Below are positions 19,194-31,480 of a stretch of 64,000 bases of DNA, one piece after another (positions within the stretch are counted from its first letter, which is position 1; the number at the start of each line of letters is the position of its first letter). The DNA is from Cutibacterium granulosum. Lineage in GTDB: Bacteria > Actinomycetota > Actinomycetes > Propionibacteriales > Propionibacteriaceae. Made by a program: the position numbers and the translations under genes. The stretch spans positions 1,302,001-1,366,000 of the forward strand of contig NZ_LT906441.1 of NCBI RefSeq assembly GCF_900186975.1, in the 5' to 3' direction. The notes below the pieces were generated by a model that saw only the letters and a list, made by a program, of their open reading frames with translations, made no database searches and had not been told where the DNA came from.

Positions 19194-22100
19194 ATGAAAC
19201 GGCTCACCGCGCTGATGCTGGTTGGAGTTCTACTCCTCGGCACCCCTCAGATGGCTTCAGCCGCTAGCACCCAGACAGATCGCATCACCCCACGCCCCGC
19301 CTCGAAGGGTGGCGTCATTGGTACTGACTTCACACCGCACGTCATGAATTCCGAGGCCGAGACAAATGTCATCGTGGAACTCAGGAAAGATCCAGTGGCG
19401 GTCATCGAGGCGAGATCAGGCACCACGATGTCGTCCAAACAACGCAGCCAACTGAGAGAAAGGATCAAGGGATCCCAGAAGTCCGTGATCTCACAGATCA
19501 ATTCATCCGGCGGACACGTCGTCAGTCAGATGGCATCTGCCTACAACGGGGTGCACGCACGAGTGCGCGGTAGCGAGCTCAAGAAGATCGAAGCCCTCCC
19601 CGAAGTTGTCGCGATCCACGGTGCACCTCGCTACAAGGCCCGACCGACGAATGACACCTCGGTACCCTTCCTGGGAGCTGACAAGGTGTGGCAGGACGTC
19701 GGATACACCGGCAAGAACGTCAAGGTTGCCGTGCTGGACACCGGGATCGACTACACCCATGCCGATTTCGGTGGTCCGGGCACTCCCGACGCATTCACAG
19801 CAGCGTCCAGGAAATCCGACCGGATTGCCGACCCTGCTCTCTTCGGTACCAAGGCCGCCAAGGTCAAGGGTGGCGTCGACCTCGTTGGCGACAAGTACGA
19901 CGCATCTGATCCCAAGAGCAAGCCTCATCCAGATCCCAACCCATTGGACTGCGCCGCTGCCGGGCATGGTTCACACGTGGCAGGCACCATCGCAGGCCTC
20001 GGCGTCACCACCAGTGGCGACACGTACCACGGACCCTACGACGGCACCACGGCAGACAAGAAGTTCAAGGTTGGCCCCGGTGTTGCCCCACATGCCGATC
20101 TCTACGCGGTGCGCGTCTTCGGATGCGCAGGTACCACCGACGTGACGACCGAGGCCATCGACTGGGCGGTCGCCAATCAGATGGACGTCGCCAACCTCTC
20201 GTTGGGAGGCACCTATGGCACGGCTGACGCCCCAGATGCCGTGGCTGCCCGCAATGCCGTCGCCAGCGGCGTCATCATGGTGGTGGCTGCCGGCAACGAA
20301 GGACACAATCCGTACCTGGTCGGTTCTCCCTCCACCGGTCACGGCGTCATCTCGGTGGCAGCCGTCGATCATGCTGAGACCTTCCCGGGAGCGGTCCTCA
20401 CCACCGCTGACGGTCACCGTATCCAAGCCATCAATGCCAACGATGCCAAGCTCGCCAGCACCTATGACGTCGTCATCCTCAAGGACGATCCCGCGACCGA
20501 GGAGGACGAGTCGCTCGGCTGCTCCGAACAGGCCTACCGATCCAACGGCATCACATCCGGAGCCAACCAACTCGCGGTGAGCACCCGTGGCAGATGTGCT
20601 CGAATAGCCCGTGCCGTCCATGCCCAGAAGGCTGGTGCCGCCGCTGCAGCCATGATCAACACCGATGACACCCTGCCGTCCTTCGAGGGCCCGATCACCG
20701 GGAACCCGGACACCGGCGAGGAGTACGAGGTCACCATCCCCTTCCTGGGGATTCGTGGACCACTCGGTGCGAAATCCGACGGGGACACCTTGCACGGAGC
20801 CGACGGAACCACCATCACCCTGCAGGGCAATTCCGCTGCGAATTCCGAGTACCGTCACCCGGCTGACTTCACTTCTTCGGGCCCCGTCACGGGAACATCC
20901 GCTGCGCACCCATCGGTGGGCGCTCCCGGCGTGTCCATCACATCCGTGGCAGTGGGCTCGGGTAGCGATGGCACGACCATGTCTGGCACGTCGATGGCCA
21001 CCCCACATGTCGCCGGGGTGGCTGCCCTGGGTGTCCAGGCGCATCCGGACTGGACCCATCAGCAGATCGGCCAGGCCATCGTCACCACGGCAGACCATGA
21101 CGGCATCAAGGGCACCGACACGCATCTCACCGGAGCGGGACTCGTCGACCCGGTGGCCTTGGTGAAGGCCACCACGTCCGCTCATGGAGACGTGACCACC
21201 ACCAAACTCGGTTCGGTCGCAGACCCCTCGTTGAGCTATGGGTTCGTCGAGATCACGGATGCGTACTCCAGCGCTCGAACGGTGAAGCTCACCAACCACT
21301 CCACGAGCGCCAAGACCTACCGGCTCACCACCCAGGCGTCAGCCAACTCCGATGCGGCCGAGGTCACCGTGAGCCCGTCCACCCTCACCATCGGCCCTGG
21401 TGCGAGCAAGAGCGCGCAGGTGTATCTGTCCACCAGCGTCGACAAGATCGGCACCTCCAGTGACAAGGACGACCAGTCCAGCTTCCATGCGATCGAAGGA
21501 ATCGTCACCGCCACCAGCGGCAGTGAGAAAACACATGTGCCGTACCTGCTCGTGCCTCGTGCCGACGCTGGTGTCACGATGGTCGGCAAACCCGTACTCA
21601 ACAAGGCCAGCAACACCATCAAACTGACCAAGCAGGCACCAGCCGTCCCAGCCACGGTCCAGACATTCACCCTGGGAACTGTGGACGCGAGAGGCCACAA
21701 GGAGACTGCGTCCGATCGCGGATGGGACGTACGAGCCATCGGGGTGGCCTCGGTCCAGAATGGTTCGGACACGACGCTGCAATTCGCCATCAACACCTAC
21801 TCCAACCACTCCAATGCCGCGTTGAACGAGTACGCCGTCATCCTCGACACCGACAACAACGGCAAGCCGGACAAGGCTGTCTTCGCGACGGATTCCGGGC
21901 TGGTCAACGAGGGGTACGCCAACGGTGTGGCCGAGGTGTTCATTGCCGACCTCGCCACCGAGGAGATCACGCCTGCTGGTCACCTCGCCATTGCGCCCAC
22001 CGATTCCAGCACTGTCATACTGCCGGTCGATGCCTCCACGGTCGGGATCAACGGCAGGTTCACCTACCGGGTGGAGACCACCTCCGGTGTCGACGACGAA

Positions 22101-22346
22101 CATCACGACCGCACTCTCAAGGCCACCTATGACCCGAACCACAAGGTCTTCGCCGATGGGCAGACCTTGACCATCGGGGCAGGGCAGCAGGACGCCGAGC
22201 TCACAGTGCCGTTCGTCCCGGCAGCATTCAAGGCTGCACCACGCAATGGGCTGGGACTGTTGCTCATAGCCCCCGACAATGCTGCGGCCAGTGAGGCGCT
22301 CATCGTTCCGAAGCTCCCACTCCGGGCAGATCTGAGGAATCCGTGA
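19194..22346 (+). CDS. secreted subtilisin-like serine protease (S8 family)
   Basis: This 1050-aa exported protease has a Sec signal peptide ([11 protein letters not shown]... to the ASA cleavage region near residue 24), an I9-type propeptide (about 50-150) and the S8 catalytic domain. The triad is Asp182 (AVLDTGIDY), His258 (GHGSHVAGT) and Ser600 ([11 protein letters not shown]). The long gap between His and Ser holds a PA-type insertion (about 400-560), as in lactocepin-like and plant subtilases. About 400 C-terminal residues form beta-rich Fn3-like repeats. No LPXTG or membrane anchor was seen, so it is probably released. A role in host protein breakdown is inferred. Confidence 0.92.
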
Positions 22347-22446
22347 TGCACATCTGCAATTCGTCAGAGCGATTCATGGCCAACCAACTCATGATTCCCG
22401 AGCTGGCATGGTCTGGACGTCTGATGCGGTGCTGAAAGCCATAATG

Positions 22447-22482
22447 CAGCTGTGGGGCCCGTCAACGACGGGCCCACAGCTG
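22447..22482. terminator. bidirectional hairpin between the subtilase and otsA
   Basis: A stem of 16 paired bases with one bulged G (CAGCTGTGG...CCACAGCTG outer arms, AAC loop) lies between the convergent 3' ends of the subtilase and otsA. No strong T-tract follows on either strand, so efficiency as an intrinsic terminator is uncertain. Confidence 0.6.
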
Positions 22483-22571
22483 TGTTCAGTTGTCAGAGGA
22501 GGATTTGGATTTCAGAGGCTGATTGGGCCAGCTTCTCCCCACACGGGTGTGCGCTCAGACGGGCAGGACGA

Positions 22572-23981
22572 TCACTCACCCAGCTCGGTGAGGAAGGAAT
22601 CCGCCCAGTCGTCAATCGTGTGGGCGAAGACCTGCTCTCGCATGGCACGCATCTTCTGTGCGCGGGCCTGCGGGGAGTCATTGATGGCCTTCATGATCGT
22701 TGCCTTCATGCCGTCGATGTCATACGGGTTGACCATGTATGCCTCGTCAAGCTCCAGAGCTGCTCCGGCGAACTCGGAGAGGATGAGGGCGGAGTTGTCG
22801 TCATCGCGGCAGGCCAAGTACTCCTTGGCGACGAGGTTCATGCCGTCGCGCAACGGGGTGACGATCATGATGTCGGCGATCTGGTACATGGCCGCCAGGG
22901 TGCTGCGCGGCACCGAGGTGTGGCGGTAGGCGATGCGGGGACGGGCCAGGGTGTCGGAGGCCGAATTGATGCGTCCCACCAGCAGGTCGATGTCGTTGCG
23001 CAGAATCTTGTACTCCTCGACTCGCTCCCTGGACGGGGTGGCCAGCTGCAGGAAGACGCAGTCGTCCTGGTCGAGTTTGCCCTCGTCGAAGAGCTCGCCG
23101 ATGGCTCGAATGCGCTGCCGAAGCCCCTTGGTGTAGTCCAGTCGATCCACACCAAAGATGATTGTCGATGGGTTGCCGAGCTCCTTGCGCATCTCCTCGG
23201 CCTCTTGGTGCACCTGGGGAGACGACGCCAGCTCGTGGAATCCCCGGGCGTCGATGGAGATGGGGAAGTCCTTGATCTTCACGACGCGACCATCGGACAG
23301 GGTGGCGATGTCGTCTGAGTCGTCTGGGCTAGTGACACCGTTGCGGTGATGGGCCAACCGGGCGAAATTGTGGGCCGCTCCCGGCGTCTGGAAACCGATG
23401 AGGTCGGCGCCAAGCAGGCCGTCGACGAGCTCACCACGCCACGGGATGTGCTGGTACAACTCGATCGGGGGGAAGGGGATGTGCAGGAAGAAACCGATCT
23501 TGAGGTCCGGGCGGGCCTCACGCAGCATCCGGGGGACCAGCTGCAGCTGGTAGTCCTGCACCCACACCGTGGCATTCTTCGCCGCCCGCTTGGCGACCTC
23601 CTCGGCGAATCGGGTGTTGACCGTGCGATAGGAGTCCCACCACTCACGGTGGAACTCGGGATCGACGACACAGTCGTGGTAGAGCGGCCACAGGCTCGCG
23701 TTGGAGAAGCCCTCGTAGTACTCGGTGACTTCCTGGGCGCTCAACGGTATTGGGACGATGTCGTACCCCTCGTGGTGGAAGGGCTCGACGGTTTCGTCCG
23801 GGGCACCGTGCCAACCGATCCACGCACCACCCTTGCGCTGCATGACGGGTTCAAGTGCCGTGACGAGGCCACCAGGTGACGTCGTCCAGTCGATGCTTCC
23901 GTCCTCATTGACAACACGGTCCACTGGGAGTCTGTTGGCGACGACGATGAATGTCGCCAGGTCATCTGATGTAGAGGTCAT
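22572..23981 (-). CDS. otsA: alpha,alpha-trehalose-6-phosphate synthase OtsA
   Basis: This 469-aa GT20 glycosyltransferase transfers glucose from a nucleotide sugar to glucose-6-phosphate, giving trehalose-6-phosphate. Visible family blocks are [37 protein letters not shown], and [14 protein letters not shown] with the Arg/Lys of the donor site, plus [15 protein letters not shown] chose the ATG at 23981 because GGAGGAGA lies directly upstream; the longer frame to 24371 overlaps otsB and lacks support. It is divergent from otsB, with a 64-bp shared promoter region. Confidence 0.94.
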
Positions 23982-24045
23982 GAGAATCTCCTCCTTTGTG
24001 TGAAGGATACCAACGGTGCGTTGCTCCGTGTGTGACGATGAAGGC

Positions 24046-24975
24046 ATGGATGATGCACAACATTTGCGCTCAGCTGAGTCTGCGGACGTCATCACCTTGC
24101 CGGACGGGGTGCGGCTCGGACCGCGCTCGTGGGTCGCCACGACCAGTGCCGGCCAGGACGTCGTGGATGCGATCGCTGCCGAACCGCAGACCACCCTGCT
24201 TGCCATGGACTTTGACGGGACGCTGGCGCCCATCGTCTCCGATCCCACCCAGAGTCGTATTCTCCCGGCGAGCCGAGACGCCATCGGCCACATTGGGGCA
24301 GCGCTGGGCGGCTGCGCGATCATCACCGGACGTCCGGTGCAGGCCGTGCGCGAGATGGCTGGACTCGACACCGATCCCCAGCTGCATCATCTCGTCGTCC
24401 TGGGCCAGTACGGGGTGGAACGCTACGACGTCGCCAGTGGGAAACTGATCGTCCCAGACGACCCGCCACAGGTGCGTCGAGCGGTGTCCGAACTCACAGA
24501 GCGCATCGATCAGATGTGCGTGGCCGACTCCCGGCTCGCTGGTACACATGTCGAGGACAAGGGGCGTGCCGTTGCGGTTCACACCCGGCGGGCACGCGAC
24601 AGCAGGGCGGCATGGCGTATCTTCGCCCCACTGTGTCACGAGGTGGCCGACCAGCACGATCTGCACGCCGAGGAAGGTCGCGAGGTCATCGAGCTCAAGG
24701 CCGAGAGCATCGGCAAGGATGATGCCTTGCGCGAACTGCAGGAGCAGACGCATGCCAGGATCATCGTCATGTGCGGCGACGACCTGGGAGACGTGCCGGC
24801 CTTCGGCGCCGTCGACGAATGGATCCGGCACGGCGGATCGGGAGCTCGTGTGGTGTCGTACTCCGTCGAGCAACCACAACTCGCCTCCCACGCAGACATC
24901 CTCTGTGATGGCCCGGAAGGAGTTGCCGCATTCCTTGACGAGATCGCCCGACGTGTGGCTACGACTTCGGAGTGA
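24046..24975 (+). CDS. otsB: trehalose-6-phosphate phosphatase OtsB
   Basis: This 309-aa HAD-superfamily phosphatase removes phosphate from trehalose-6-phosphate. The nucleophile motif is MDFDGTLAPI (about residue 61), motif II is ITGRP, and motif IV is MCGDDLGDVPAF. The ATG at 24046 gives MDDAQHLRSAE; an in-frame ATG 10 codons upstream is possible. Together with the divergent otsA it completes the two-step trehalose pathway, used as compatible solute and stress protectant. It converges with pdxR. Confidence 0.92.
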   Translation: MDDAQHLRSAESADVITLPDGVRLGPRSWVATTSAGQDVVDAIAAEPQTTLLAMDFDGTLAPIVSDPTQSRILPASRDAIGHIGAALGGCAIITGRPVQAVREMAGLDTDPQLHHLVVLGQYGVERYDVASGKLIVPDDPPQVRRAVSELTERIDQMCVADSRLAGTHVEDKGRAVAVHTRRARDSRAAWRIFAPLCHEVADQHDLHAEEGREVIELKAESIGKDDALRELQEQTHARIIVMCGDDLGDVPAFGAVDEWIRHGGSGARVVSYSVEQPQLASHADILCDGPEGVAAFLDEIARRVATTSE

Positions 24976-24987
24976 TGAGGACGCATC

Positions 24988-26430
24988 TCATCGTTCCTCT
25001 GCCCGAATGATCCTCGCCACCTGCTCCAGGGCAGCGGTGAGGACCTCGTCGCTCAGCCTTCCGAACCCCAGGACGATGCCATGCTTGGCGCCTTCGCCAC
25101 CCCAGTACCGGGACAGGGCACGTACCCCGATCCCATGGGCAGCGCAGGAACGGACCAGGGAGGCTTCCAGTTCTGAACTGGTTGCATGCGGGTCCGCTGC
25201 CCCACAGAAGGAGGCATGGCTGGTGGGATCGATGACGAGTACCGCGTGCAACCCGCCATTGATCGGCAGGAGTTCGGTGCCGTCGACGTCTGCCAAGGTG
25301 TCGATGACGAGTTGACGGCGACGGCGATACACCTGGCGTAGCCGTTGGGTTCGCCGCCGCAGTGCCCCGGTCTCCAGATAACTGGCCAGGGCATGTTGCA
25401 CCAGGGCTCCGACCGGCTGACTGGTGGCCCGCCGATGATCTCGAATCACCGGGACGAGACGGGGCGGGACGATGAGGTACCCGCAGGCCAGGGCCGACGT
25501 CATCACCGAGGAGAACGTTCCCAACAGGACGGTGTGGGAGGGCTGCAGGGTTGCCAGGGCTGGAAGCGGTTGGCCGACGTGACGCAGCTCGGAGTCGAAG
25601 TCGTCCTCGATGATCCAGCTGTGGGTACGTGCTGCCCAAGCGGCCAACTCGACTCGACGCGGTGTCGACAGGCTCCCGCCATCGGGGTACTGGTGCCCTG
25701 GGGTCACCAGGACGGCGTCCAGCTCCTGCTCCGGCAACTCATCGGTGAGCAGACCGTGCTCGTCGGTGGCCAGGTTGACGGTGTGGTGCCCCAGCGCGGG
25801 CGGCACCTTGCGCAGGCTCGGGTATCCCGGCGATTCGACACCGATGGTCTGCCGGGAACCCCGTGCAACATGCAGTAGCAGGGCAAGACCTTCCCGGGCT
25901 CCAGACGTGACGACGACCTGGCCCGGGTCACACACCAGACTGCGCATCTGACGCAGGTGTTCGCAAATCTGCCAGCGCAATTCTGGCAGCCCCAGCGGAT
26001 CGGTGTTGGTGATTCCTGGATGGGCTGCGGCCTGCCGCCATGCCGCGCGCCAGGACGGATCGGCCAGGTCGGAGGTGTCGGGGACGCCCGGGGTCAGTTC
26101 GACGAGACGACTGTGACGCACCGGGGTGCGTAGTGGGGTGGTGGTTCCCTGCGGGTGCAGGTGGGCAAGGTTCGGATTGACCATCGTCCCAGAACCGTGA
26201 CGGGCGACCAGATATCCCTCGGCGCACAGCTCCTCGTAGGCGGTGACGACCGTGCCACGGGCCACCGACAGTTCGCCGGCCAGAGCGCGTCCGCTGGGAA
26301 GTTGATCGCCGGGATTGAGCACCCCACGTCCGATGAGAGCGCGGATCTGCTGGGCCAGCTGCTGGGGGAGTGCAGTGTCATCGGTGCGATCCAGCGTCAC
26401 GGGCAGATCGACGACGAGATCCGATCGCAC
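24988..26430 (-). CDS. pdxR: MocR-family regulator PdxR of vitamin B6 synthesis, lacking the PLP lysine
   Basis: This 480-aa protein joins an N-terminal GntR winged helix (PQQLAQQIRALIGRGVL, QLPSGRALAGELSVARGTV, about residues 15-80) to a fold-type I aminotransferase-like domain. Members sense PLP and control pdxST. The PLP Schiff-base Lys normally found in the family motif GTFSK is replaced here by Ser308 (GTFSSVM), so PLP could bind only without an aldimine at this residue. The start is GTG 26430, preceded by AGGAGG; the frame reaches another GTG at 26469. It is divergent from pdxS. Confidence 0.9.
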   Translation of the reverse strand: MRSDLVVDLPVTLDRTDDTALPQQLAQQIRALIGRGVLNPGDQLPSGRALAGELSVARGTVVTAYEELCAEGYLVARHGSGTMVNPNLAHLHPQGTTTPLRTPVRHSRLVELTPGVPDTSDLADPSWRAAWRQAAAHPGITNTDPLGLPELRWQICEHLRQMRSLVCDPGQVVVTSGAREGLALLLHVARGSRQTIGVESPGYPSLRKVPPALGHHTVNLATDEHGLLTDELPEQELDAVLVTPGHQYPDGGSLSTPRRVELAAWAARTHSWIIEDDFDSELRHVGQPLPALATLQPSHTVLLGTFSSVMTSALACGYLIVPPRLVPVIRDHRRATSQPVGALVQHALASYLETGALRRRTQRLRQVYRRRRQLVIDTLADVDGTELLPINGGLHAVLVIDPTSHASFCGAADPHATSSELEASLVRSCAAHGIGVRALSRYWGGEGAKHGIVLGFGRLSDEVLTAALEQVARIIRAEER

Positions 26431-26485
26431 GGGCACCTCCTGGGAAATGGGGCGAGAACTGGACCTCACTCAGTGAACTCCCCAA

Positions 26486-26534
26486 AAGTGGTCCATTGCA
26501 ACTCGTGTGATATGGATCTTGTGATGGACCACTT
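26486..26534. promoter_or_regulatory. candidate PdxR operator: 11-bp inverted repeat with 27-bp spacer
   Basis: AAGTGGTCCAT (26486-26496) and its exact complement ATGGACCACTT (26524-26534) lie between pdxR and pdxS, centres 38 bp apart. A TATGGA box at 26511-26516, between the arms, could be the pdxS -10 element. Paired sites spaced by several helical turns are typical of dimeric MocR regulators. Function is inferred from place and symmetry. Confidence 0.65.
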
Positions 26535-26554
26535 GCCCGGCTTGGATGGAGCCC

Positions 26555-27463
26555 ATGACTGAGAACACAGAGGTTCGGACCTCACACACCGGCACGACCC
26601 GAGTCAAGCGAGGACTCGCCGACATGCTCAAGGGAGGCGTCATCATGGACGTCGTCACCCCCGACCAGGCGAGGATCGCCGAGGATTCCGGGGCGTCGGC
26701 CGTCATGGCCCTGGAGCGCGTGCCAGCAGACATTCGCGCCCAGGGCGGCGTGGCACGGATGAGCGACCCCGAGCTCATCGAGGCCATCAAGGACGCCGTG
26801 TCCATCCCGGTGATGGCCAAGGCCCGCATCGGCCACTTCGTCGAGGCACAGGTGCTGCAGGCACTCAAGGTGGACTACATCGACGAGTCCGAGGTGCTCA
26901 GCCCGGCTGACTACGCCAATCACATCAACAAGTGGGACTTCGACGTCCCCTTCGTGTGCGGCGCGACCAACCTGGGCGAGGCTCTGCGGCGCATCACCGA
27001 GGGTGCAGCCATGATTCGGTCCAAGGGGGAAGCGGGCACCGGGGACGTCTCCGAGGCCGTCAAGCACCTGCGCACCATCCGCGGCCAGATCAACAAACTC
27101 ACCAGCATGGACGACGACGAACTCTACGTCGCAGCCAAGGAGCTCCAGGCCCCCTACGATCTCGTCGCCGAGGTGGCCCACACCGGCAAGCTTCCAGTCG
27201 TCATGTTCGTCGCCGGTGGAGTCGCCACCCCGGCGGACGCCGCGCTCGTCATGCAGATGGGAGCCGAGGGCGTCTTCGTAGGATCGGGCATCTTCAAGTC
27301 CGGAAATCCTGCCAAACGTGCTGCGGCGATCGTCAAGGCCACGACGATGTTCGACGATCCCCAGGCCATCGCCGACGTGTCCCGCTGCCTGGGAGAGGCC
27401 ATGGTTGGCATCAACGTCGCCGACGTGCCCGCGCCCCACCGACTTGCCGAACGCGGATGGTGA
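26555..27463 (+). CDS. pdxS: pyridoxal 5'-phosphate synthase lyase subunit PdxS
   Basis: This 302-aa TIM-barrel subunit builds PLP from ribose-5-phosphate, glyceraldehyde-3-phosphate and ammonia supplied by PdxT; twelve copies form the core. Sequence blocks such as [27 protein letters not shown] and [18 protein letters not shown] are near-invariant in the family. Two starts are possible: ATG 26555 (MTENTEVR) and ATG 26546 three codons earlier. The stop overlaps pdxT. Confidence 0.96.
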
Positions 27464-28026
27464 GGGTCGGCATCCTTGCCCTGCAGGGAGGAGTGGACGA
27501 GCACGCCGCCAAGCTTCGGCAACTCGATGTGCAGGTGAGGAAGGTGCGGCGACCAGCCGATCTTGACGGACTGGACGGAATCGTCCTGCCAGGCGGGGAG
27601 TCGACGGTGTTCGACAAGCTGGCGCGCACTTTTCACCTCGACCAGCCGTTGCGTGACGCGATCGCCGGTGGTCTGCCCACCTTGGCGACCTGTGCCGGAC
27701 TCATCTACTGCGCACGTGAGGTTCGAGACGCCGCTGTCGGCCAGCAGACCCTCGGAGTACTCGACGTCGTCGTGGGACGCAATGCGTTCGGAAGCCAGGT
27801 GGACTCCTTCGAGACCACCCTCGACGTCAAGGGATACGGATCGGTGCCGGCCACCTTCATTCGCGCGCCTCGAGTGGTGGAACTCGGGCCTGGCGTCCAG
27901 GCCATCGCGACCGTGGGTGATGGCAGTGTGGTCGGCGTCCAGCAGGGTCGGATCACGGCATTGGCGTTTCACCCTGAGCAGAACGAGGATCTCACGATTC
28001 ACCGCACCTGGGTGACGCAGTTGTAG
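27457..28026 (+). CDS. pdxT: pyridoxal 5'-phosphate synthase glutaminase subunit PdxT
   Basis: This 189-aa class I glutaminase supplies ammonia to PdxS. It has [12 protein letters not shown] at the N-terminus, LPGGEST, the nucleophile Cys in LATCAGLIY, and the His-Glu pair in AFHPEQNED. The start ATG 27457 overlaps the pdxS 3' end by 7 bp; a GTG at 27460 is also possible. Length and motifs are normal. Confidence 0.95.
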
Positions 28027-28123
28027 AACGATGAAGTATCAGTCGGTGCAGCGCTCAACGAGGGAGATGACTCTCCGATGAACGTCCATGGCCCTGACAC
28101 ATTGTGCACCCCATGACGCATTC

Positions 28124-28149
28124 CCAGTCGGGGTTCGAACCCCGACTGG
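28124..28149. repeat. 26-bp perfect palindrome downstream of pdxT
   Basis: CCAGTCGGGG, then TTCGAA, then CCCCGACTGG is perfectly self-complementary over 26 bp, about 100 bp after pdxT. There is no T-tract, so it is not a normal terminator. The centre resembles a tRNA T-arm but lacks the 7-nt loop geometry. It could be a protein-binding dyad, a cruciform or an attachment-site relic. Confidence 0.6.
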
Positions 28150-28313
28150 ATGAGTACCGCGGGCATCCGATGAACCGCGATGAGGTGTTGATATGATGTG
28201 ATCAGGTTTTGTTTGATCGCACGGGGCTAATACAGATGACACGCTCTGTGTTCGTGATCTTGCAGACAGCTCCATAGGGGCGTCGCTCCACTTCACGGTC
28301 AAGAAGGAGTTTC

Positions 28314-28571
28314 ATGTCAAAGATAGGTCGGGTTGTGTCGATCATCCTCATGGTGGTGATCATCCCCGCTCTCGCTCGCCATGGAGTTGGTGTCATTCCC
28401 GCTGCTCTTGTTGGTGCTGGCATAGGAGGGCTCACTGCGGTTGTCGATGGGGCACGTCAGAAACGGCGGATCCAAAGGAGTGGTGTGGGTGATGCAGATG
28501 GTGGTGAGCCTGGGCAGTGCACACAGCCGTGGCAGGACGCCCCGTCTGGACAAGACCGGGGTCAGGGTTAG
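28314..28571 (+). CDS. small membrane protein, unknown function
   Basis: This 85-aa protein is preceded by an excellent ribosome binding site (AAGGAG). Its first 50 residues form two hydrophobic segments (IVSIILMV-like and ALVGAGIGGLTAVV), followed by a polar, Gln- and Gly-rich tail. No family was recognised. It lies between pdxT and a ParA remnant, in a region with signs of mobile-element decay. Confidence 0.55.
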   Translation: MSKIGRVVSIILMVVIIPALARHGVGVIPAALVGAGIGGLTAVVDGARQKRRIQRSGVGDADGGEPGQCTQPWQDAPSGQDRGQG

Positions 28572-28599
28572 TCACGCAGGATTGTGAGCGTGGTTGGGG

Positions 28600-28794
28600 C
28601 GTGGTCCCAACCCCAAAAACCATCGCCACTGGCAGGCCCGATGATTCCGAAGCGGCCGCTTTGGCTGCACACGACGCTGCCGAGCTATGCAAGGACGCAT
28701 CGGCAACACGAGCCTGGTAGCCTTGCGCATGCAGTGCGGCTGCAGAAAACATCACGGTAGTGGTCTTGCTCACCTCGCCCTTCGCGTTCGTCAC
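28600..28794 (-). pseudogene. ParA-family ATPase remnant (N-terminal part)
   Basis: The minus-strand frame from GTG 28794 reads VTNAKGEVSKTTTVMFSAAA, which matches the deviant Walker A region of ParA proteins (typically NAKGGVGKTTT), followed by a degraded second strand (QARVADA where family members read ADADPQG). Two P-loop glycines are changed to Glu and Ser, and resemblance fades after about 65 residues. It is a decayed piece of a plasmid or integrative-element partition gene. Confidence 0.55.
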
Positions 28795-29183
28795 GGACCA
28801 AGTTGGGATCCCCTCACCAAGTAAAATCCTTGGGAGGCAGGTCAGCGGAGCTCAGAGCAGGCCTTCGTCCTTGAGGCGGCGATGAACACGAAGCTGCCGC
28901 TCCATCTCCGCCTCATCCTCCACCTGGGTGGATCAACTGTAGCGGATGGGTCACCTCCGAAGGGTCCTCGTGGATCGGCATCGGGACTTCCCGGTCATGG
29001 GGGTCTTGACGACCGCCTGGTGCAGTTTCCCCGAACCGGCGCCATCTGGTGGAGCACACGTGTGGCTGGGACAGCGATTCTGCACAGATGGCCGTTCTTC
29101 TGGCGGCACTACAGTGGTGTTTTTCGTTGGTGAGGCGCGGCTCATGGCCCAGGCGTGGCACCGTGACGGAACCCACTCATCCC
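28795..29183. other. non-coding stretch between the ParA remnant and the HNH nuclease
   Basis: Several short frames occur on both strands but none has a ribosome binding site with a recognisable product. I see no RNA gene or long repeat. Confidence 0.45.
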
Positions 29184-30587
29184 TCAGCGTGGTGGTTTTT
29201 CGCAGGCGATTCCATCCCCGTCGCGGTCCAGCCCGGTTCGGTACCCGGGCTCACCGCGGTGGAGTGGGGCTGCTCCTGCAGCCCAGGCGTCCTTGCACCT
29301 TGCGTAGTACGCGCCGCCACTGGCTGGCCTGGGTTTGGTGGTGTGGCGTGTCTTTGGAGTCGTCCTGTTCCGGGGTGTCTTGGGCTTGGACGTCTTGGGC
29401 TTGGTGGCTGGGGTCTTCGTCATCCCTGTCGGAGCCTTGACGATCGGTGCGTTCGCCACGTCGGGCACGGGCTGGTTCGGGCAGCCGCGCAGCACTCGGG
29501 TCATGCCGTCCTTCTCCGTCGGCGTCACCCACAGCCGGTACTTCTTCTTCACACTCACCTGACGAGCCACATAGGCGCAACGGAACGACGTGTTCGCCGG
29601 TAGCCAGGTTGCGGCGTCCGCATCGGACTTCTGTTGATTGGCCGGACCGTCGACTGCCAGGAGGTTGAGCGGGTCGTTGGCTAGGGCCACCCGCTGCTGC
29701 AGCGGGATCTTCTGGGCGCCAGTCTGCCAGGCATTCGACAGGGCGATGACATGGTCGATCTGCACTGCCGACGAGGTTTTCTGCCCGCGGTGAAAGGTAA
29801 TCACTCGTCCGGTGTAGGGATCGGGGAGATCCCCGGAGGCGACGACACACTCGCCGGTTCCGGACTTGTACGTCTTGTTGACGAGGTCTCGGCGCAGAAT
29901 GTCGTTGCGCGTGTCGCACCCATTGCGGTCGACGTCCAACCAGGCGTCCCCGAACTGCTGGCGGGAGTACCCCGTCTTCGGCGCTCGCCCTTTCACCGGC
30001 AGGGCGGCAAGCATCTCCAGTGCGCTGCCAGCGGTGGCTCCGGACGTCCTGGCACGTGGCCTCGGGGAGGCCGATGAGCTTGTCGAAGGGTGCGCAGAGA
30101 CACTGGGGTGAGAGGTGGCACTCGGCCTGTCCACGGCATGTGGCTTCGGTGTGGCGATTGGGTCCTCGGCATCCCCAGCCGGGGACGACGCAGATGAGGG
30201 TGTCTGTGGAGCGGTCGACTCCGACTCGTCGGCCGGGGCGATGGCCCCGCCGGTGACAAGCAGGACGAAGGAGACGAGCAGACCCCACAACGACTGCTTG
30301 CGAGTGGCGTCGAACAACGGCGTGATCCAGGAGTGCCCGAAGGCCAGGTGCCACAGGGTCGAGCCCAGCAGGAACAGGGCGCACAGGATGAGCCCCAAGG
30401 ACGTCCTGCCGGCCAGGAACGGCCATCCGAAGAGGATGACGAGGACTGCAATCCCCACCCACGCCTTCATCCGAGGTGGCCGATGTGGGTCCGGCTCAGG
30501 TGAACCGGATGGCTGCTGGGAGGCAGGGAGGCTGCCGGGTTGGGGATGGGGGCGGGTGTCCCACGGCTGCTGATTCGTGCCAGGCAT
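29184..30587 (-). CDS. membrane-anchored HNH nuclease with excalibur domain
   Basis: This 467-aa protein has a Pro/Gln-rich head and three hydrophobic segments (about residues 40-125). A Ser/Pro-rich linker leads to a GmrSD/DUF1524-like HNH nuclease domain (QIDHVIALSNAWQTGAQ and NDPLNLLAVDGPANQQKSDA, about 270-345). A Thr/Pro/Lys-rich spacer follows, then a C-terminal excalibur calcium-binding motif (DRDGDGIACE). The nuclease domain lies after the membrane segments and is probably extracellular, suggesting nutrient nucleic-acid breakdown or DNA uptake. The start ATG 30587 follows GGAGAACC. Confidence 0.85.
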   Translation of the reverse strand: MPGTNQQPWDTRPHPQPGSLPASQQPSGSPEPDPHRPPRMKAWVGIAVLVILFGWPFLAGRTSLGLILCALFLLGSTLWHLAFGHSWITPLFDATRKQSLWGLLVSFVLLVTGGAIAPADESESTAPQTPSSASSPAGDAEDPIATPKPHAVDRPSATSHPSVSAHPSTSSSASPRPRARTSGATAGSALEMLAALPVKGRAPKTGYSRQQFGDAWLDVDRNGCDTRNDILRRDLVNKTYKSGTGECVVASGDLPDPYTGRVITFHRGQKTSSAVQIDHVIALSNAWQTGAQKIPLQQRVALANDPLNLLAVDGPANQQKSDADAATWLPANTSFRCAYVARQVSVKKKYRLWVTPTEKDGMTRVLRGCPNQPVPDVANAPIVKAPTGMTKTPATKPKTSKPKTPRNRTTPKTRHTTKPRPASGGAYYARCKDAWAAGAAPLHRGEPGYRTGLDRDGDGIACEKPPR

Positions 30588-30796
30588 CGGTTCTCCTGGA
30601 GGTCAAGGGCGAGGATAGGACGACAAGAATACCGTGTTGGCCTGGGCTCAGTTCCTCCCAGCGCCATGTGACTACCAGTGTCGCTCCACTCCAGCGTCAT
30701 GGTGGGTCATATGTGGAACGGTCTCGACGCCCTCGCCAGTGAGGGGAGACCTCATCGCGTCTCGGGAGTGTCTCACCCCCGCTTTAGCATCGGATC

Positions 30797-31480
30797 ATGC
30801 GGCACAGCCATGACGACAACATGTGGCAGCCAAGCTTGGAGAATTGGTGGGTTCAGGAGCAGAACCAGTCTGGGCAGGGGAGGTTTCCTGTGGCGGAGAT
30901 CAACGGGACACGACAAGGTTGGCAGGAGACGCCCGACGACATGGAGGGGTTGAGTCAGCTGGCGCGGATCGCCTGGGAAGAATGGGAGGAGTACGCCCCG
31001 ACAGCATTCGGGATGCTTCGGGACCTCAGGACGTTCTTTTCGAGACTGGGGGAGCGGGCCCAGGAACAGGAGAGCCAACTGGCAGCAGCGATGCAAGGCC
31101 CGGACAAGCCAGGGGAATCGACGATGGCCAAGGCAGGACGGATCCAGCAGGCGACGAACGCAGCCCGCGAGCAGGTGATCGTCGAGATGTGTCGTCCACC
31201 AGCCGACCTGATGGAGGACGACAACGACGACCTGCTGGACGATCGCGAGGCAGCGGAATCGTGGTCGACGGGGGTCAACTACTACCTCCTGCCGTGGATC
31301 GAGGAAGAACCCGACCCGGAGGAGGACGAGGACATGTACGACCTGTACTGGTCACTGATCGGACACTCTCTCGTGGACGCGACGAATCCATCGTCACACA
31401 TACAACTTGGTGTCGAGGGTGTGGGTCTGGACGAGGAGCGACGGAGTCGACTCGGTCTGCCTCCGGACCTCGTAGGCTGA
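30797..31480 (+). CDS. hypothetical acidic protein
   Basis: A 227-aa soluble protein with a very acidic middle and C-terminal part (MEDDNDDLLDD, EEEPDPEEDEDMYD), a central helical segment, and no signal peptide or membrane helix. An alternative start at ATG 30821 would remove eight residues. It ends 4 bp before the iminopeptidase gene, so the two are probably co-transcribed. No family recognised. Confidence 0.65.
   Translation: MRHSHDDNMWQPSLENWWVQEQNQSGQGRFPVAEINGTRQGWQETPDDMEGLSQLARIAWEEWEEYAPTAFGMLRDLRTFFSRLGERAQEQESQLAAAMQGPDKPGESTMAKAGRIQQATNAAREQVIVEMCRPPADLMEDDNDDLLDDREAAESWSTGVNYYLLPWIEEEPDPEEDEDMYDLYWSLIGHSLVDATNPSSHIQLGVEGVGLDEERRSRLGLPPDLVG

Follow-up and report, generated by a model that had tools for sequence, protein, structure and literature searches.

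The regulator encoded beside pdxST in Cutibacterium granulosum is, by sequence and genomic context, a PdxR, yet it is without the lysine that is a feature of the PLP-aldimine MocR regulators. Judged from the sequences compared, this loss is wider than the initial annotation had stated and is common to a large and old group of PdxR proteins, to which the characterised regulator of C. glutamicum apparently belongs. In the accessible part of PMC6677901 (the papers cited below by PMC number were likewise available in part), the Schiff-base lysine of MocR regulators is stated to be conserved across all clusters, and no mention of a PdxR lacking it was found in the literature searched, most subscription papers being beyond reach. 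The reading that we favour, at a probability of about 0.5, is that of a pdxST activator whose aminotransferase-like domain would bind PLP, or a B6 compound related to it, with no Schiff base involved. It is an even bet that the whole branch, including the C. glutamicum protein, constitutes a non-covalent B6 receptor derived from a PLP enzyme fold, in which case a covalent aldimine would be unneeded for feedback on pdxST and the label "PLP-Schiff-base sensor" would be wrong for the branch. If the characterised C. glutamicum PdxR and a large group of its relatives lack the lysine, a laboratory strain could be used to test whether B6 feedback by MocR regulators needs a covalent bond. The absence of the residue is not reflected in family names such as PLP_TF_PdxR.

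The window protein and its operator

The window, that is the whole stretch of 64,000 nucleotides analysed, carries pdxR, preceded by the sequence AGGAGGT upstream of its GTG start, together with its presumed target genes (Table 1). The protein scores 435.5 bits on the PdxR equivalog model NF052282 of NCBIfam (cut-off 320) and is matched by phmmer to B. clausii PdxR (7pq9, E 1.7e-49) and B. subtilis GabR (4n0b, E 1e-45). It has the MocR/GabR layout of a GntR winged helix-turn-helix (PF00392) combined with a fold-type I aminotransferase-like domain, the latter recognised by comparing its AlphaFold model (mean pLDDT 90.2) with GabR and PdxR structures. The model superimposes on GabR with Z 43.0 and on B. 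clausii PdxR with Z 42.9, in each case with an rmsd of 2.1 over 357 residues, and the same two proteins are the top two Foldseek matches. Despite this fold, Pfam PF00155 (Aminotran_1_2) is not listed up to E 10 for the window protein or for the presumed C. glutamicum PdxR described below; it matches relatives both without the lysine (L041, L042) and with it (L027, L037).

Table 1. Positions of the main features in the window
Feature	Position	Strand	Remarks
pdxR, PdxR without the lysine	24988..26430	-	480 aa; GTG start 26430, stop codon ends at 24988
Winged helix-turn-helix (GntR) domain, residues 23-84	26179..26364	-	Pfam PF00392, E 4.8e-15
Asp276 codon, kept	25603..25605	-	equivalent to GabR Asp279 (pyridine nitrogen); alignment
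Phe278 codon	25597..25599	-	equivalent to GabR Tyr281; alignment
Ser308 codon, TCG	25507..25509	-	equivalent to GabR Lys312 (Schiff-base lysine); phmmer and family alignments
Putative PdxR operator, 49 bp, gapless	26486..26534	+	direct boxes AAGTGGTCCA and TGGATCT, inverted third box TGGACCACTT; predicted to bind PdxR
Putative -10 element of pdxST, TTGGAT	26542..26547	+	7 bases before ATG 26555; candidate promoter element
pdxS (PLP synthase lyase subunit)	26555..27463	+	Pfam PF01680, E 2.7e-107; NCBIfam PRK04180, 516.7 bits
pdxT (PLP synthase glutaminase subunit)	27457..28026	+	Pfam PF01174, E 3.3e-48; start 27457
Trehalose-phosphatase gene (otsB-like)	24016-24975	+	convergent with pdxR

Over the lysine site the phmmer alignment is free of gaps, with GTFSSVMTSALACGYL in the window protein facing GTFSKSLLPGLRISYM in GabR. 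The replacement of the GTFSK lysine by Ser308, which the initial annotation had read from the window alone, is thereby confirmed: the position of the internal aldimine of MocR regulators, Lys312 in GabR, is occupied by serine. Two further changes had escaped it, Tyr281 to Phe278 and Arg319 to Ala315 (GabR residues named first). By analogy with aspartate aminotransferase, Arg319 is the arginine that holds the phosphate of the cofactor. Asp279, Tyr281 and Lys312 of GabR are numbered as in PMC6677901, and the position of Arg319 was counted out from that numbering. The whole window protein has two lysines only, at 208 and 449.

B. clausii PdxR (7pq9, 7zla, 7zn5, 7zpa, 7zth), of which the cryo-EM entries carry the title holo-PdxR, shares the fold and the two-domain architecture, but retains the lysine and arginine of the PLP site (AFSKSLIPSVR). 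GabR (4n0b, 5t4j) likewise shares the fold and has the aspartate, Asp279, that is kept in the window protein, and differs from it in the triad Lys312/Tyr281/Arg319, which is Ser308/Phe278/Ala315 in the window; it requires PLP and GABA in order to activate, according to PMC5320631.

The initial annotation had also noted that pdxST is divergent from pdxR and that an inverted repeat lies nearby. The repeat is real, with arms at 26486-26496 (AAGTGGTCCAT) and 26524-26534 (ATGGACCACTT), and proves to be part of a conserved 49-bp element. In 92 of 93 loci the leave-one-out score of this element was higher than that of any shuffle of the same group, the search being seeded with the window's own element and the null consisting of 20 plain base shuffles for each sequence, on rows thinned at 88% identity and on loci with at most 320 bases between matches. 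It was recovered in 48/48 loci of the main clade without the lysine, 12/12 of the Thr clade, 7/7 of the Ala/Gly clade and 25/26 of the lysine-bearing PdxRs. Mixed direct and inverted boxes, as in the window, are also described for the operator of B. clausii PdxR in the accessible part of PMC5320631.

The window operator ends 20 bases before the pdxS ATG (26555; an alternative in-frame ATG lies at 26546). A start codon 20 or 21 bases past the operator, usually with a hexamer ending in AT, is found in 47 of 67 loci without the lysine and in 18 of 26 with it. This spacing of operator, hexamer and start codon, common to most loci, suggests that the third box covers the -35 region of pdxST and that translation may begin on a leaderless pdxST mRNA. 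An RNA element near pdxST is not indicated, as 22000-31000 gave no match to Rfam at gathering scores. On the other side of pdxR, 22572-24975 contains an otsA-like gene (- strand; glycosyltransferase family 20, trehalose-6-phosphate synthase type) and the otsB-like gene on the opposite strand.

Breadth and descent of the lysine loss

Serine occupies the lysine site in 9/9 Cutibacterium genomes among the matches listed. The loss as a trait of one genome is therefore rejected, since serine recurs in all nine and a small residue is present in many relatives. Sequencing error and gene decay are likewise rejected as unlikely, because serine is found in all nine matched genomes of the genus and because dN/dS in six pairs of pdxR genes without the lysine is low (0.07-0.26).

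In the first loci compared (L011-L042, n=32), 19 were without the lysine and 13 had it. The sample was then one of 120 aligned loci with a divergent pdxS, among which 91 have a small residue (Ser 57, Thr 24, Ala 8, Cys 1, Gly 1) and 29 a lysine; these shares should not be read as prevalences, since PdxRs without the lysine served as queries, which biases the sample to the window query, and one gene is doubled (C. avidum locus L041 is identical in coordinates and protein to L021). The 37 other aligned rows, outside this set, gave 35 Lys, 1 Thr and 1 Arg. Conversely, pdxS is divergent in 91 of the 93 sampled rows without the lysine. Two control sets, both composed of best matches to the window protein, were dominated by lysine: 70 of 76 readable loci in genome contigs (exceptions Ser 2, Arg 3, Thr 1) and 27 of 28 in the class sample (exception Thr 1). 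Thr or Arg at the site (SSFTT, GTFSR, GSFSR) was also seen in the MocR-like proteins L060, L084, L089, L108 and L237, for instance in Nitrincola.

The initial annotation had proposed asking whether serine is conserved in the PdxRs of Propionibacteriaceae. The answer is mixed by genus: it holds for Cutibacterium and fails for several other genera. One genus (g4) has Ser in 4/5 and Cys in 1/5, another (g27) Thr in 4/4, and further genera of the family carry Ala, Gly, Ser, Arg or Lys. In L016, a member of the main clade without the lysine, a cysteine stands at the lysine site itself (GTFSC). Corynebacterium contributed 75 loci, 70 from matches in 106 of 201 genomes and 5 more. Those with a divergent pdxS (68) have Ser in 41, Thr in 19, Ala in 3 and Lys in 5, and 5 further loci, with no pdxS in the stretch, have Lys in 4 and Thr in 1; L156 and L157, both with Ser and with open reading frames, were left out of the 68-locus counts, the alignments and the trees.

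In a tree of 123 rows, calculated with the lysine site itself excluded, parsimony requires 2 changes for the PdxRs with a small residue when L237 is left out and 3 when it is included. Constraining all 70 small-residue rows to group together improved the tree slightly, by 6.11 log units (p-AU 0.584). A single ancient loss of the lysine may thus account for the sequences. Many separate losses are disfavoured by the low number of changes and by the acceptance of the constrained tree. The main clade, of 50 representatives, includes both the window protein and the presumed C. glutamicum PdxR and has an SH-aLRT value of 93; the tree that gave this value contained a wrongly trimmed L238.

The cofactor pocket

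Apart from the lysine, much of the cofactor site is retained, its aromatic and polar residues included. The equivalent of Asp276 is Asp in 99/99 representatives (50/50, 13/13 and 7/7 in the main, Thr and Ala/Gly clades, 29/29 in the lysine-bearing PdxRs), Arg179 of the phosphate loop is likewise invariant in 99/99, Gly177 is invariant in every group and Thr305 is present in all rows without the lysine. Mean entropy over 10 cofactor-site positions, as against the rest of the domain, is 0.17 versus 1.43 bits in the main clade, 0.32 versus 1.12 in the Thr clade, 0.16 versus 0.98 in the Ala/Gly clade and 0.29 versus 1.27 in the lysine-bearing PdxRs. By this measure, on sites picked by us, pockets without the lysine are no looser than those with it, the Thr clade being about equal; the contrast with the rest of the domain is partly built in, because the ten sites were picked from motifs known to be conserved. 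Pocket entropy is a weak test of ligand binding, as conservation can also serve folding.

The two additional changes have histories of their own. At the Phe278 position the main clade has Phe in 41, Tyr in 7 and His in 2 of 50, as against Tyr in 28 and Phe in 1 of the 29 lysine-bearing PdxRs adjacent to pdxS. This substitution marks the loss of the lysine only in part: Phe occurs together with Lys in Proteobacteria (loci drawn with a pattern containing WIIEDDFD), and the Ala/Gly clade keeps Tyr. The position of the phosphate arginine is occupied by Ala in 16, Gly in 12 and Ser in 1 of the same 29 lysine-bearing proteins, and its loss as a partner of lysine loss is accordingly rejected. Since it is missing in both kinds of PdxR, the arginine would have gone first or have never been present. 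For the same reason, the ligand seems to have been anchored elsewhere, perhaps at Arg179, already before the loss of the lysine.

Ligand sensing and the regulator of C. glutamicum

The diaminopimelate dehydrogenase (Ddh) of one Corynebacterium genome, G801, is identical over 320/320 residues to PDB 1dap, which we take to be the Ddh of C. glutamicum ATCC 13032. This genome is apparently that of C. glutamicum, so that its PdxR would be the characterised pdxST activator and be without the Schiff-base lysine. Its lysine site reads GTFSSVITPQVACGYL, with Ser. It shares 55% identity with the window protein (242/442 aligned) and scores 446.9 bits on NF052282, within the range of 425.7-451.4 bits given by the G801, C. 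flavescens and C. avidum proteins. The two regulators are thus alike as PdxR equivalogs with Ser at the lysine site and, as read from G801, in the 49-bp three-box element upstream. The accessible part of PMC7775120 lists the pdxR gene of C. glutamicum (cg0897) as acting positively on the genes of PLP synthase. That of PMC5320631 names C. glutamicum among the species in which pdxST is activated by apo-PdxR, with PLP as anti-activator. Both papers cite Jochmann et al. 2011 for the activator. The activator role is published for C. glutamicum, whereas for the window protein we infer it. One of the regulators underlying the description of apo-activator and PLP anti-activator therefore appears to have no Schiff-base lysine and, if C. 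glutamicum is itself a species in which anti-activation was measured, PLP acts on a PdxR without that lysine.

It seems possible to outline how such a switch could operate. When B6 is low, apo-PdxR would sit on an operator of two direct boxes and one inverted box, the latter lying over the -35 region of pdxST, and activate transcription. With ample B6, PLP or a closely related compound (either PMP or a PLP-amine adduct, for which no lysine is required) would enter the pocket non-covalently, and an alteration of the ligand-bound dimer would bring activation of pdxST to an end. Both suggestions of the initial annotation are borne out as far as sequences can show. That the protein still regulates B6 synthesis is supported by the equivalog score, the recurrent divergent pdxS, the retention of the operator and purifying selection, all of them sequence evidence. 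That PLP may be bound non-covalently, or another ligand used, agrees with a pocket that is kept and with the lack of a conserved substitute lysine in the window's clade; as the pocket is otherwise conserved, a ligand, if there is one, may be PLP or B6-like. Switches without the lysine probably either sense B6 by different means or do not sense it.

The strongest point against non-covalent binding is EnuR, in which the Lys302His substitution loses PLP and freezes the regulator (PMC8739950, accessible part), so that a MocR protein without the lysine may simply not hold PLP. That mutant, a constitutive repressor, also lends substance to the rather unlikely idea that PdxR is blind to PLP and locked in the apo form, pdxST being constitutively on and B6 output set at the level of the enzymes. 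The changes in three cofactor contacts (Lys312, Tyr281 and Arg319) would fit this idea, and those in the latter two count against non-covalent binding as well. A dead sensor should however drift, and the pocket is conserved as in lysine-bearing PdxRs across an old group. Moreover, C. glutamicum PdxR is counted as PLP-controlled (PMC5320631), and the EnuR variant, though also a MocR protein without the lysine, is engineered, has lost PLP and is stuck as a repressor, in contrast to a natural group kept by selection. It is unlikely, to a slightly greater degree, that the pocket now responds to PMP, to an adduct of PLP with an amino acid or to another small amine and not to free PLP. The frequent change of Tyr281 to Phe in the main clade would suit another effector, as would the lack of a PdxH match in the genome at E 0.001, so that the route from PMP to PLP by PdxH may be absent (the Phos_pyr_kin family has four genomic places above cut-off). 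Fold-type I enzymes that use PMP and have no aldimine lysine are known, the ColD and E1 type sugar dehydratases, and offer a precedent for the scaffold; there the lysine is replaced by His and the proteins are catalytic, whereas the window group has Ser, Thr or Ala in a regulator. The operator and target are nevertheless like those of the compared lysine-bearing PdxRs, and the invariant aspartate facing the pyridine nitrogen argues for a pyridine vitamer as the ligand here too.

Besides non-covalent binding of PLP or a related compound, two covalent alternatives must be considered. Cys316 (codon 25483-25485, ACGY), eight residues past the lost lysine, is Cys in 43/50 of the main clade and in 0/29 of the lysine-bearing proteins and is a possible thiol contact with the ligand. 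That it holds the PLP aldehyde as a hemithioacetal is highly improbable, even with the cysteine at the lysine site of L016 in its favour, as the position is Ala in 13/13 of the Thr clade and Thr in 7/7 of the Ala/Gly clade. An internal aldimine with another lysine is hardly credible. Some domain lysine exists in 42/50 of the main clade, which is a point against the non-covalent reading, but at differing positions: over residues 90-480 of the 50 representatives no alignment column reaches at least 40% Lys. Lys208 of the window protein, just past the pocket residue Tyr203, is shared by 8/50. Counted from the conserved start, four of the 50 (L018, L019, L230, L234) have no lysine in the whole protein, and in the Ala/Gly clade the same holds for L239, L240 and L244; L238 (Ala at the site, in a 1217-residue frame) was kept out of this count. 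A replacement aldimine is thus excluded in the lysine-free members, the N-terminal amine apart, and, to judge from the alignments, is very unlikely in the rest of the main clade, because no lysine is conserved and 4/50 have none. The neighbouring lysine envisaged by the initial annotation as an aldimine partner is accordingly rejected for the window's clade. In the Thr clade (13 representatives), which is not that of the window, residue 113 is Lys in 10 and Arg in 3, which speaks both for a substitute lysine and against the non-covalent reading; as Arg is also found there in 25/29 lysine-bearing PdxRs, this lysine may be a plain basic contact. Lysines at residues 145 and 362 occur in about half of the Thr clade. 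The Corynebacterium PdxRs of this clade that share the residue-113 lysine are L204-L207, L210, L212 and L214-L217.
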